From positions 1 to 64,000 of the forward strand of contig JAPLDR010000042.1 of NCBI GenBank assembly GCA_026391655.1: a stretch of 64,000 nucleotides of DNA, written 5' to 3'. Shown here in pieces: positions 60,009 to 64,000 of the stretch (position 1 is its first letter; the number at the start of each line of letters is the position of its first letter). The notes below the pieces were generated by a model. That model had not been told where the DNA came from. It did not search any database and saw nothing but the letters and a program-made list of their open reading frames with translations. A program made the translations under genes and the position numbers. Origin of the DNA: Bacteroidia bacterium (lineage in GTDB: Bacteria > Bacteroidota > Bacteroidia > Bacteroidales > Prolixibacteraceae).

Positions 60009-62495
60009 TTATCCCAATTCAACAATAGTAATCCCAGAACCCCCAAATTGAACATGCTCGTCGTGGCAGTTTCGGACTGCTGGTTCTGTTCGGAGATAGT
60101 TCTGGATCAGTTCGCGTAAAATTCCGTTGCCTTTTCCGTGCAAAATATGTAGTTCACTTGCATCAACCATAATAGCCTCATCAACAAACTCTCTGATTTT
60201 TTGCAGCGCCTCTTCGGCGCGCAAGCCACGCACATCGATATTCGGTTTGAAAACAAGCTTCCGCTCGCCGATTTCCTGATTAATACGCCCTTTTGTTTTG
60301 TTCTCAACCTTTGTTCGCTTGACCTCGCTTCGCGAAACTGACTCCAATTTATTCCGCTTTACGACAGACCGGAGATGACCGAATGCCACCGTGATTTTAT
60401 TTGATTTAATTTCAAGTACTTCGCCCAAAGTATCCTGACCAGGCAAACGAACCCAGCCACCTACTTCAATTTCGGCCGGCGCCTTTCGCGGAACGACAGC
60501 CATCTTCTTTTTCTCTTCCACCTTTTGAGGTCGCTCCTTGCGTTGTAGCTCATTTTGCTTCAATTTCGCCATCTTACGGAGGATTCGCTCATCATCTTCC
60601 TCCCCTTTTCGGGAAATCTCCGCTTTAAAATCCTCCAGCTTCTGACGCGCTTCCTGTGTCCGTTCTTTCCCGGCATCAGCCTCTTTTATATCGCGAATAG
60701 TCTTTTCAATAATCCGGTTCGCCCCCGAAACGATCTCTTCAGCCTCGCGTTTTGCCTTGTCGAGAATCTCTTTTCGCAACTTCTTTGTCTCGGCAAGACC
60801 AGTTTCGTAATTTTCGGCCAATTCCTCAATCCGTTTCTCCTCCTGTCTGATCTTCTGTCGTTTGCTCTCCCAATATTTTTTATCACGAACAATTTCACGT
60901 AAGTGTTTATCGAAATCGATGTGATCGACTCCGATTTTATTGGTTGCATCCTGAAGAATCTCTTCGGGAAGACCAATTTTACGCGCAATTTCAAACGCGA
61001 ACGAACTTCCTGGCTTTCCAATTTGAAGCAGGAAAAGTGGTTCCATCTTGTGTGAATCGTAAAGCATAGCACCATTGGCAATTCCGGGCGCTGACGAAGC
61101 AAAGTGTTTCAGATTCGTATAATGGGTTGTGATCACCCCAAAAGATCCCAACTCATTTATTTTATTCAGGATAGATTCGGCAATGGCACCGCCAAGCATC
61201 GGCTCAGTTCCCGTTCCAAATTCATCGATCAGGACAAGCGAATCGGGAGAACAATTCCTTACAAAGAATTTCATATTGTAAAGATGAGAGCTATAAGTAC
61301 TTAAGTCGTTATCCAACGACTGATCATCACCAATATCCATGAAAATAGCCCTGAATATACAGGTACGGCTATCGACCTGAACAGGAATGGGAATACCGCA
61401 TTGAACCATATACTGCAACAATCCGACCGTTTTAAGACAGACTGACTTACCTCCCGCGTTAGGTCCTGAAATCAATAAAATTCTGTCCGTCTTGTCGAGC
61501 CGGATATCAAGCGGAACAATTTTACGCTGTTCCCTCGCCAGGTTAATCTCCAAAAGCGGATGACGTGCTGTTATCCAATCGAGTTCAAACTCATACAATA
61601 AAACCGGTTTAACTGACTTGCTTTCGATGGCCCAGATCGCTTTAGACCTAATAAAATCGAGGATCGCCATTACCAGGTACGAATAGGCAATATCGTCGGC
61701 ATAAGGACGAATATCATCCGTAAAACGTGTAAGAATTTTCACAATTTCCCTTCTTTCAGCCGCCTCAAGCTCCCTGATGCGGTTATTTGTTTCGACGATC
61801 TCTTCCGGTTCTACATAAGCAGTTTTTCCTGTAGCTGACTCATCGTGAATAATTCCTTTGATTTTCCGCTTATTGGCCGCTCCTACCGGGATAACGGCAC
61901 GCCCATCACGTATTGATACGGAAATATCTTTTTCAACCAATCCTTCAGCCTGCATCTTTCGTAAAATAGTGCTCATAATTTTCGAAATACTCGATTGCAA
62001 CGAAAGCATATCACGGCGGATCTGTGACAGTTCGGGCGAAGCGTTATCCTTTATCTGGCCATGTTTGTTAATAATCTGATCGATACGCTCGTATATAAAC
62101 GGAAAAATCTGTACATTTTGTACCACATTTCTCAATCGCGGAAAAGTTCCTTCCTCAGTATTCCGAAAGAAAGCCACAATAGCGCGTACCGTTTCGAGTG
62201 AACGTCGCAAATCGAACAATTCGAATACCTCGAGGAAAGTACCTGCAACTTTTGACCTTTGTAAGGCAGCACGCATATCAATAAAATAACCATTGGGAAA
62301 ATTCATCCCTTCGCTGATGATCTTTACAAACTCAATCGTTTCATCCAATTGCCGTTCAATATCTTCACGATCGGATGAAAAGTTACATTCATCAACCTTC
62401 TCTTTGCCCAAAGTACTCAGGCAACGTCCCTGAAGTATTTCGCGCACTTTATCAAACCCAATCTTACTCTCAAAATTCGAAGGGTAAATATCCAT
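60009..62495 (-). CDS. mutS2: MutS2 recombination/ribosome-rescue ATPase
   Basis: The 828-residue protein has the MutS-like core and clamp domains, Walker A SGPNAGGKSVCLKTVGLLQY (near residue 345), Walker B LVLIDEFGTGTEP, a long coiled coil (~530-640) and a C-terminal Smr endonuclease domain with DVRGLRAEEALQKI and LHILHGKGNGILRE. MutS2 suppresses homologous recombination and, in other bacteria, acts on collided ribosomes. The length is normal and the domain order complete. Confidence 0.95.
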   Translation of the reverse strand: MDIYPSNFESKIGFDKVREILQGRCLSTLGKEKVDECNFSSDREDIERQLDETIEFVKIISEGMNFPNGYFIDMRAALQRSKVAGTFLEVFELFDLRRSLETVRAIVAFFRNTEEGTFPRLRNVVQNVQIFPFIYERIDQIINKHGQIKDNASPELSQIRRDMLSLQSSISKIMSTILRKMQAEGLVEKDISVSIRDGRAVIPVGAANKRKIKGIIHDESATGKTAYVEPEEIVETNNRIRELEAAERREIVKILTRFTDDIRPYADDIAYSYLVMAILDFIRSKAIWAIESKSVKPVLLYEFELDWITARHPLLEINLAREQRKIVPLDIRLDKTDRILLISGPNAGGKSVCLKTVGLLQYMVQCGIPIPVQVDSRTCIFRAIFMDIGDDQSLDNDLSTYSSHLYNMKFFVRNCSPDSLVLIDEFGTGTEPMLGGAIAESILNKINELGSFGVITTHYTNLKHFASSAPGIANGAMLYDSHKMEPLFLLQIGKPGSSFAFEIARKIGLPEEILQDATNKIGVDHIDFDKHLREIVRDKKYWESKRQKIRQEEKRIEELAENYETGLAETKKLRKEILDKAKREAEEIVSGANRIIEKTIRDIKEADAGKERTQEARQKLEDFKAEISRKGEEDDERILRKMAKLKQNELQRKERPQKVEEKKKMAVVPRKAPAEIEVGGWVRLPGQDTLGEVLEIKSNKITVAFGHLRSVVKRNKLESVSRSEVKRTKVENKTKGRINQEIGERKLVFKPNIDVRGLRAEEALQKIREFVDEAIMVDASELHILHGKGNGILRELIQNYLRTEPAVRNCHDEHVQFGGSGITIVELG

Positions 62496-62601
62496 TTCGG
62501 TTCATTGATTACGCCGCAAAAATAAATAGAAAATCGGGAAGTATGTGTGCGATAAACTTATTCGCTTTACGATTAGACATATTCTCACCGGATTGTTCAA
62601 A

Positions 62602-62632
62602 TTCGTACACTCCTGTTTATAAAAACCGTACA
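62602..62632 (+). promoter_or_regulatory. Tandem half-sites upstream of the repeat-protein gene (enhancer-like)
   Basis: TTCGTACA (62602-62609) and ACCGTACA (62625-62632) lie 23 bases apart. The same pair with the same spacing is at 63725-63755, and in both cases the second half-site starts 72 bases before the sigma-54-like box. Confidence 0.6.
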
Positions 62633-62696
62633 ACAAATCAATCTTAAAGCTCAATACAAAACAATCAACATTCTATATTACAATTTATTAACAAGT

Positions 62697-62715
62697 TTGG
62701 CACGATAACTGATAT
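62697..62715 (+). promoter_or_regulatory. Sigma-54-like promoter
   Basis: TTGGCACGATAACTGATAT carries the -24 block TTGGCACG and a -12-like block CTGAT, close to the consensus TGGCACGrnnnTTGCw but with A where the invariant C is expected. It is repeated almost exactly at 63820-63838. The gene ATG is 45 bases downstream. Confidence 0.65.
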
Positions 62716-62759
62716 TTTCATTGCGACAATGATTCGAAAACAATAAAAAAAAACATATC

Positions 62760-63458
62760 ATGAAAACAACATCGCACAATGCAGCAAAAGAGATCAGAAT
62801 TGGAATATTGTTAGTGGTATTTACAATGGCCACTTTCACCGCATTCAAGGTCAAAGAAATTCAAGTTAATGATTTGGAAAACGGAGAACTAATGAGATCC
62901 GGAAGAATTGAAGTTAATCAAACGGGCTTTATGTCTTTACCAGTTCTTGATGCAAAATTGATTGAAGAACCAGTTCTTGAGGTCGAAGCCTGGATGAATA
63001 GCGACAGTTACTGGGGAGCGGAAACTAATAAGAAAGCTGTCGAAGCTGAACTGGCACTTCAGATTGAACCTTTGATGAAAAACACTGAATATAATGCGAA
63101 GGAATTTGTCGAAGCTGAAATGGCACTCGAAATCGAAAACCGGATGAATAGCTATGAAGAAACTAATAACGAAGCTCTCGAAGCAGAACTGGCGCTTCAG
63201 ATTGAACCTTTGATGAAAAACACTGAATATAACGCAAAGGAATTTGTTGACGCTGAAATGGCGCTCGAAATCCAAAACAGGATGAATAGCAATGCCGGGA
63301 CTAATAACGAAGCTGTCGAAGCTGAACTGGCACTGCAGATTGAACCTTTGATGAAAAACACTGAATATAATGCAAAGGAATTTGTCGAAGCTGATATGGC
63401 AATCGAAATCCAAAGCTGGATGAATAATTCCGAATACTGGAATATGGCAAGCAAATAA
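62760..63458 (+). CDS. Exported protein with seven 23-residue repeats
   Basis: The 232-residue protein has a hydrophobic N-terminal segment (residues 14-29, GILLVVFTMATFTAF), so it is probably exported or anchored. Residues 71-231 are seven consecutive 23-residue units (starts 71, 94, 117, 140, 163, 186, 209) of the type VEAELALxIExxMNNxEYNx. Units alternate between two subtypes, so the DNA shows a 138-bp period. The first and last units carry the variants AWMNSDSYW and SWMNNSEYW. It is acidic, probably a helical array. I know no function. A strong terminator follows, and the promoter looks sigma-54-like. Confidence 0.75.
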   Translation: MKTTSHNAAKEIRIGILLVVFTMATFTAFKVKEIQVNDLENGELMRSGRIEVNQTGFMSLPVLDAKLIEEPVLEVEAWMNSDSYWGAETNKKAVEAELALQIEPLMKNTEYNAKEFVEAEMALEIENRMNSYEETNNEALEAELALQIEPLMKNTEYNAKEFVDAEMALEIQNRMNSNAGTNNEAVEAELALQIEPLMKNTEYNAKEFVEADMAIEIQSWMNNSEYWNMASK

Positions 63459-63487
63459 TGCTAAATACTTCCCCTTAACAACCTTTG

Positions 63488-63515
63488 ATGCCCGGTTTTG
63501 CCGGGCATTTTTTTG
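63488..63515 (+). terminator. Terminator of the repeat-protein gene
   Basis: ATGCCCGG and CCGGGCAT pair around TTTTG, followed by T7. The rest of the 416-base gap up to 63874 contains the regulatory sites listed and no gene. Confidence 0.9.
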
Positions 63516-63724
63516 CATTCTTACAGTTATCACGATCACTTCACATCATTGGGGCTCAAATAAAAGTTGTTCAGAATCAGCCACATCTGTTTCTCTTAAT
63601 TTGCCATCTTCTGCCAATAGTTTCAACCGGTTACAATTAGTAACCTTTCTGAGTATTATCCGGCAAATCTTCAAATTTTTAAAATTCTCCCGGAATCCAC
63701 TTATCCAATTGCAAACTGTTCATT

Positions 63725-63755
63725 TTCGGACAGTAATATTTTCAAAAACCGTACA
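63725..63755 (+). promoter_or_regulatory. Tandem half-sites upstream of the last gene (enhancer-like)
   Basis: TTCGGACA (63725-63732) and ACCGTACA (63748-63755), 23 bases apart, repeat the pair found at 62602-62632. Flanking AAAAA before the second site is also shared. Confidence 0.6.
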
Positions 63756-63819
63756 GTAATCAGTATTCAACAACCTTCAACAAATATTTATATCATTGTT
63801 TTACATTACTTTACAATCT

Positions 63820-63838
63820 TTGGCACGATTGGTGATAT
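63820..63838 (+). promoter_or_regulatory. Sigma-54-like promoter of the last gene
   Basis: TTGGCACGATTGGTGATAT differs from the box at 62697 only in the three bases between GAT and TGATAT. The ATG lies 37 bases downstream. Confidence 0.65.
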
Positions 63839-63874
63839 AAACCAATCAGAAAATAATTTTAAAATAAAAATAAA

Positions 63875-64000
63875 ATGAAAACAACAACTTATAAAACAGG
63901 AAACGTGATGAGATCAATAGTAGCATCTTTAATTATTCTGGCTTCACTCCAGGGAATTGCAAAAGGAGAAAATTCGGATAAGAAAGCAATCGGAATCGTG
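63875..64000 (+). CDS. Exported protein, start only (cut by window end)
   Basis: Only 42 codons are visible. The protein begins MKTTTYKTGNVMRSIVASLI, similar to the MKTTSHNA start of the repeat protein, and has a good signal peptide (SIVASLIILASLQGIAKG). With its sigma-54-like promoter and matching upstream half-sites, it belongs to the same control as the gene at 62760. Its body lies outside the window, so no family can be given. Confidence 0.7.
   Translation, partial: MKTTTYKTGNVMRSIVASLIILASLQGIAKGENSDKKAIGIV

Follow-up and report, generated by a model that had tools for sequence, protein, structure and literature searches.

A predicted sigma-54 regulon of exported ExWM-repeat proteins and MacB-like exporters in Bacteroidales

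We analysed a 64,000-nucleotide stretch of DNA (the window; bases 1-64000 of contig 77) from a draft genome of 5.0 Mb in 149 contigs. By a marker protein, the closest records that carry a name are metagenome genomes of Mariniphaga and Prolixibacteraceae, and Prolixibacter. At its end we found two tandem genes for acidic exported proteins, each preceded by a sigma-54-type promoter and by paired upstream sites at fixed distances. The explanation that fits best, and which we consider probable from the sequence evidence, is that sigma-54 and an activator encoded on contig 39 act at these shared sites, and that exporters and ExWM-repeat proteins are thereby co-expressed under envelope stress.

Two tandem genes and their promoters

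The pair adjoins mutS2 (60009-62495, minus strand). Gene 1 (62760..63458, plus strand) encodes a 232-aa acidic exported or anchored protein with an N-terminal hydrophobic segment and the repeats LEVEAWM ... LQIEPLM ... IEIQSWM; we counted two full ExWM repeats and several degenerate ones. Gene 2, also on the plus strand, has its first 42 codons in the window (63875..64000), which ends in codon 42. Its full extent is 63875-64576 of the contig (L042:3876-4577), encoding 233 aa. The N-terminus of gene 2 (...SLQGIAKG-EN) is likely a signal peptide, and the full-length protein shares with that of gene 1 an acidic character, a hydrophobic stretch at the N-terminus and repeats. Further along contig 77 (L042:8583-8689, about 68.6 kb), an N-run, either a gap or a masked stretch, breaks a dehydrogenase E1-like gene.

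A previous reading of this DNA from the sequence alone (the sequence-only reading) had held that the two coding sequences diverge beyond their first residues. Comparison of gene 1 with full-length gene 2 overturned this claim, with 54% identity over 156 residues. Judged by sequence, the two genes are tandem paralogues and a duplication did happen; the paralogy had been missed because the window edge cut gene 2. Two distinct types, gene 1-like (MKTLSYNTEKEIR...) and gene 2-like (MKTITYKTAKVIR...), lie close together in several genomes of the same genus. A likely intrinsic terminator, read from the sequence as a GCCCGG-TTTT-GCCGGGC hairpin with a T-run, follows gene 1 (63488..63514, plus strand). 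Since it lies between the genes, each probably has its own promoter, and the two are probably separate transcription units.

Searches of Pfam and NCBIfam with both proteins gave no family above its cut-off, and a PDB sequence search with gene 1 gave weak low-complexity matches alone. The AlphaFold model of gene 1 by itself had a mean pLDDT of 36; the structure was not predictable and the model was not used.

The -24/-12 promoter used by sigma-54 is a rare promoter type in bacteria. As the sequence-only reading had described, both upstream regions share a block TTGGCACGATNNNTGATAT. It runs from 62697 to 62715 in front of gene 1, 45 bases short of the ATG at 62760, and from 63820 to 63838 in front of gene 2, 37 bases short of the ATG at 63875. 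The 5.0 Mb genome has no further exact copy. Within the block, the predicted promoter of gene 1 (62697..62711, plus strand) carries TTGGCAC at -24 and CTG(A) at -12, and that of gene 2 (63820..63834, plus strand) TTGGCAC and GTG(A). Among 23 aligned promoters, TGGCA and the TG of the -12 element are invariant, and the spacing TGGCAC-N6-TG is in the register of TGGCACG-N4-TTGC. At -12, both promoters have GA and not the GC dinucleotide. The A had been called a weak point, and it is indeed there, but it reflects a habit of the lineage: in 66 of 69 activator-linked Bacteroidales promoters, TG is followed by A, G or T, so a C seems not to be required.

The lack of a conserved -12 GC would also be expected if TTGGCAC-N6-TG were the operator of another factor and transcription started from a sigma-A promoter (TAnnTTTG). 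Related genes of another genus, which have a different leader with a TATATTTG box, agree with such an arrangement. We regard it as very unlikely, since 20 to 23 sequences all keep TGGCA-N7-TG at the exact -24/-12 spacing, a canonical-looking TGGCATGACTCTTGT is present at the MacB operons, and the upstream site is common to a sigma-54 activator locus in a genome with intact rpoN.

We also scanned the whole genome with the exact pattern of the sequence-only reading, allowing up to 3 mismatches, and checked 30 matches. Of these, 26 were inside open reading frames and 4 were intergenic. Among the intergenic matches, the upstream site is found at the pair and at C39:6159; the fourth match is C69:56211 on the minus strand. 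This pattern by itself is too narrow.

Paired upstream sites and the candidate activator

Half-sites of the form (T/C)CG(T/G)ACA had been noted upstream of both genes at a spacing of 23 bases, the second of them beginning 72 bases ahead of the -24 TGG. Their positions and spacing are right, but they are not isolated half-sites; they form the right arms of palindromic sites. The palindrome TGTNC-N6-GNACA (UAS1) starts 103 bp before TTGGCA, and a second site (UAS2) lies 23 bp further on. For gene 1, UAS1 is TGTTCAAATTCGTACA (62594..62609), a predicted site for an activator dimer, and UAS2 (62617..62632) is weaker with the right arm CCGTACA. For gene 2, UAS1 is TGTTCATTTTCGGACA (63717..63732) and UAS2 (63740..63755) has the same right arm CCGTACA. 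The left arm of UAS2 is not conserved.

The palindrome with a sigma-54 box at 99-107 bp exceeds what chance would give: elsewhere in the window, 0 of 9,546 overlapping 260-bp segments, counted on both strands, contain it, and it did not occur in 5.7 Mb of Markov-shuffled sequence. A scan for the UAS only, with one mismatch, gave 47 places compared with 81 for a reversed control. Thus, the palindrome alone is unspecific and needs a promoter at the right distance.

To follow conservation, we aligned the upstream regions from 8 same-genus genomes per gene and calculated mean pairwise identity. The alignments show TGTYC-N6-GNACA 101-104 bp before TTGGCA, the arm CGKACA 23 bp later, and TTGGCAY-N6-TG. 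UAS1 is 74% identical for gene 1 and 90% for gene 2, and the promoter 81-83%, compared with 36-45% for spacer and flank. Between gene 1 and gene 2 within one genome, 56-100% of UAS1 is shared and 32-45% of the spacer. Because both upstream regions kept the motifs alone while the rest diverged in every genome, the motifs appear to be under selection.

This footprint bears on the idea that the shared upstream DNA is simply left over from a recent tandem duplication in which the promoter was copied as well, with motifs that are not selected. Gene 1 and gene 2 are adjacent paralogues, as that idea expects. However, it is contradicted already by the footprint, in which sites and boxes persist at fixed distances while spacers fall to 32-45%; the two gene types are distinct and both occur in several genus genomes, and a like architecture stands before the unrelated MacB operons. 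We therefore hold a duplication remnant to be extremely improbable.

In another genus of the family (L082, L086, L090, L096, L099, L069), the leader before related repeat proteins is a different one. It is strongly conserved, about 190 nt long, and contains the inverted repeat ATGGTAC...TACCAT as well as the TATATTTG box; an Rfam search with three of these loci gave no match. The sequence TGGTACTATGTGTTGCAT before these proteins was considered as a sigma-54 promoter and rejected, because its two elements are spaced one base too far apart and there is a TATATTTG box in the leader.

rpoN and sigma-54 activators, which the sequence-only reading had named as a check, are both present. The genome has a single, intact rpoN (C55:157858; full-length, 485 aa, with the RpoN box ARRTVAKYR) and encodes seven sigma-54 activators. 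One of these, on contig 39 (C39:617-1990), is a response regulator with the domains Response_reg, Sigma54_activat and HTH_8. It is divergent from an operon of an ABC ATPase and a MacB/FtsX permease that has its own TGGTATGATTTATG box, and upstream sites sit in the divergent promoter region between the two. A two-TM histidine kinase is its neighbour, as is, in orthologous loci, a SanA-like DUF218 gene; in L165:8736-9419 and L177:8735-9388, the SanA-like gene comes after the sensor kinase in the activator cluster.

A weight matrix built from the sites of the pair's promoters only was then run on activator loci. We found two sites 21 bp apart at the contig-39 activator in 14 of 14 genus orthologues, this genome included. 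The best score per locus was 15.3-21.6 at these orthologues, compared with at most 11.0 at 16 other activator loci of the genus; of the seven activators encoded here, only the contig-39 one has strong sites. We also examined 80 Bacteroidales activator loci, including Prolixibacter, Marinifilum, Ancylomarina, Labilibaculum and Saccharicrinis. In most, the best site lies within the upstream region of the activator, and the distance from site to TGG is 103 or 104 bp in 46 of the 69 measurable loci, which is the spacing of the window pair.

The loop that contacts sigma-54 reads G[AS]FTDA and not GAFTGA in 80 of 80 orthologues (L165-L244), and is GSFTDA in the copy of this genome; the activator encoded at C55:111543 likewise has GAFTDA. 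In L228, L207, L216, L213 and L199, a further site, around -2370 to -2460 relative to the activator, is followed by a sigma-54 box after about 92-103 bp. In several Bacteroidales, this site is near a conserved 98-aa ORF (MLKDLCIPIPGF...).

Presence and absence of the activator were compared with the promoters among related genomes. G083, G087 and G089, all members of the genus, have rpoN and have neither an orthologue of the contig-39 activator nor a repeat protein, and their best promoter-model E-values are 0.0055-0.09. In G088, G090 and G093, also of the genus, the activator is present and no repeat protein was matched; promoter matches there precede small exported proteins. G079, which is 68% complete, has the promoters and no close activator orthologue.

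These data weigh on whether the promoters, though dependent on sigma-54, have their palindrome bound by a different regulator, either one of the six other activators or a repressor that also acts on the contig-39 operon. Seven activators to choose from and the variable quality of UAS2 leave some room for this. Against it, strong sites in an activator's own promoter occur at the contig-39 activator only and are kept in nearly all of the 80 Bacteroidales loci, and genomes without the orthologue are also without the promoters, yet keep rpoN. We consider a different regulator unlikely.

Genes behind the shared promoter architecture

We built a model of the whole promoter region (R1) from 20 relatives, leaving this genome out, and ran it on 18 genus genomes. 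In this genome, the pair on contig 77 came first (8.8e-17 for gene 2, 5.7e-16 for gene 1), a recovery that is partly expected because the model was trained on sequences that include orthologues of the pair. R1 also matched C39:6053 (4.8e-10), before a third repeat paralogue (C39:6206-6733), and C34:12848 (1.2e-6), before a second MacB-like operon of a class that is not in the training set. The ABC (MacB/FtsX) operon on contig 39 gave a weak match (5e-4), and the next match in this genome was at 0.04. The operons on contigs 39 and 34 both combine a MacB_PCD and FtsX permease with an ABC ATPase; they are MacB-like rather than strict MacB, because the ATPase is a separate protein. Across the genus, strong matches stand before genes for repeat proteins, before the MacB operon of the C34 type and before the gene for an exported protein of 164 aa.

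Upstream of the copy of the 164-aa-type protein in this genome (C101:3658), we found a sigma-54 box at a distance of 66 bp, together with two arms that resemble the sites and are spaced by 21 bp. In several genomes, a conserved exported protein of 163-168 aa that belongs to no Pfam family is preceded by sigma-54 boxes with sites; its loci are C101:3658 (L312, L357), L292, L288, L296, L298, L300 and L302.

In Prolixibacter and in a Marinilabiliaceae genome, R1 matches small exported proteins with two to six [LIM]x[VI]ExWM repeats each, for which we use the name ExWM-repeat family. We made a profile from these proteins of other genera alone, searched 198 genomes of the order, and examined the upstream regions afterwards. 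The profile recovered gene 1 of the window (E 1.2e-5) and proteins in 10 other genomes. Gene 1 shares the N-terminal hydrophobic or signal segment and the ExWM repeats of the family, and gene 2 belongs to it by homology to gene 1. Upstream of the profile matches, a sigma-54 box with the palindrome 101-105 bp before it stands at six loci, which come from five genomes; another match has a site at about 82 bp, and one has the box alone. The remaining profile-match loci, two same-family genomes among them, have neither box nor site upstream. Thus, the repeat family appears to be often, and not always, under sigma-54 and site control.

Taken together, the intact rpoN and activators, the further R1 copies and the like loci in other families give good support, at the level of sequence, to the proposal of a sigma-54 regulon with small exported repeat proteins among its targets. 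Its scope had been drawn too narrowly, as exported repeat proteins of this organism: the two MacB/FtsX operons and the 164-168-aa exported protein also appear to belong to it, and it is found in many other Bacteroidales.

Proposed mechanism and comparison with known systems

We infer activator binding and identity, the signal and the function of the proteins as follows. RNA polymerase with sigma-54 would transcribe each gene from its own -24/-12 promoter. A phosphorylated response-regulator activator, most likely the NtrC-family regulator C39:617-1990, would bind as dimers to UAS1 (TGTNC-N6-GNACA), which lies roughly 110-130 bp before the start, and also to the weaker UAS2 two helix turns nearer, remodelling the holoenzyme by DNA looping. 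The same sites are predicted to control the contig-39 ABC/FtsX operon, the C34 MacB-like operon and the C39:6206-6733 paralogue, and probably the C101:3658 exported protein. The two-TM kinase probably senses envelope damage or antimicrobials. Exporters and acidic ExWM-repeat proteins would then be made together, and the latter may act in or across the periplasm. Gene content alone suggests an envelope-stress or antimicrobial-efflux response, because two MacB-like exporters, a SanA-like protein, a kinase and exported acidic repeat proteins occur together.

A wider proposal, which we offer tentatively and as a single whole, is that ExWM proteins protect the envelope and form a new class of such proteins in Bacteroidales, that together with paired exporters and a variant (GAFTDA) activator they make up one sigma-54 stress response of ancient origin, and that they bind membrane-active compounds or the MacB-like exporter in the periplasm or at the surface.

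Few sigma-54 regulons have been worked out in Bacteroidota. The present analysis provides a candidate activator, a predicted DNA site, a distance rule of 103-104 bp before the -24 box, and two MacB-type operons as the core. The exported repeat family can now be found by promoter as well as by sequence, which gives a first lead on its purpose, and sigma-54 targets can be predicted in many Bacteroidales genomes. Our literature search found no work by others on the contig-39 activator or the ExWM-repeat family.

In the enterobacterial envelope-stress systems ZraSR/ZraP and PspF, a sigma-54 activator drives envelope proteins. Their target proteins differ from those described here, where MacB-like exporters are among the predicted targets, and a comparison by Pfam only revealed no homology between ExWM proteins and either ZraP or Psp. 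NtrC/ZraR-type regulators (PDB 4l4u, 1ny5, 1ojl; receiver 2qr3) resemble the contig-39 activator in receiver, AAA+ sigma-54 domain and Fis HTH. However, their loop is GAFTGA, unlike that of the 80 orthologues.

Within the same phylum, -24/-12 promoters of Flavobacterium psychrophilum were mapped by 5'-end RNA-seq (PMC9723704) and precede envelope-stress genes and genes for exported proteins of unknown function; the activators were suspected to differ between clusters. The targets given in the available part of that paper are chaperones, Lon, a gliding operon and others, with no MacB operon or ExWM-repeat protein named, and that part defines no activator site, whereas here the palindrome TGTNC-N6-GNACA is proposed. 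A computational survey of sigma-54 (PMC12316311) places ABC-type antimicrobial peptide permeases (COG0577) among the predicted sigma-54 targets in Bacteroidia, a prediction that our two MacB/FtsX operons fit. Activator specificity was not available for all of its organisms, and its accessible text mentions neither exported repeat proteins nor this activator site. It is well supported by sequence that the regulatory unit is a conserved one of a known kind, sigma-54 with a response-regulator activator; the target family and the activator site are newly described.
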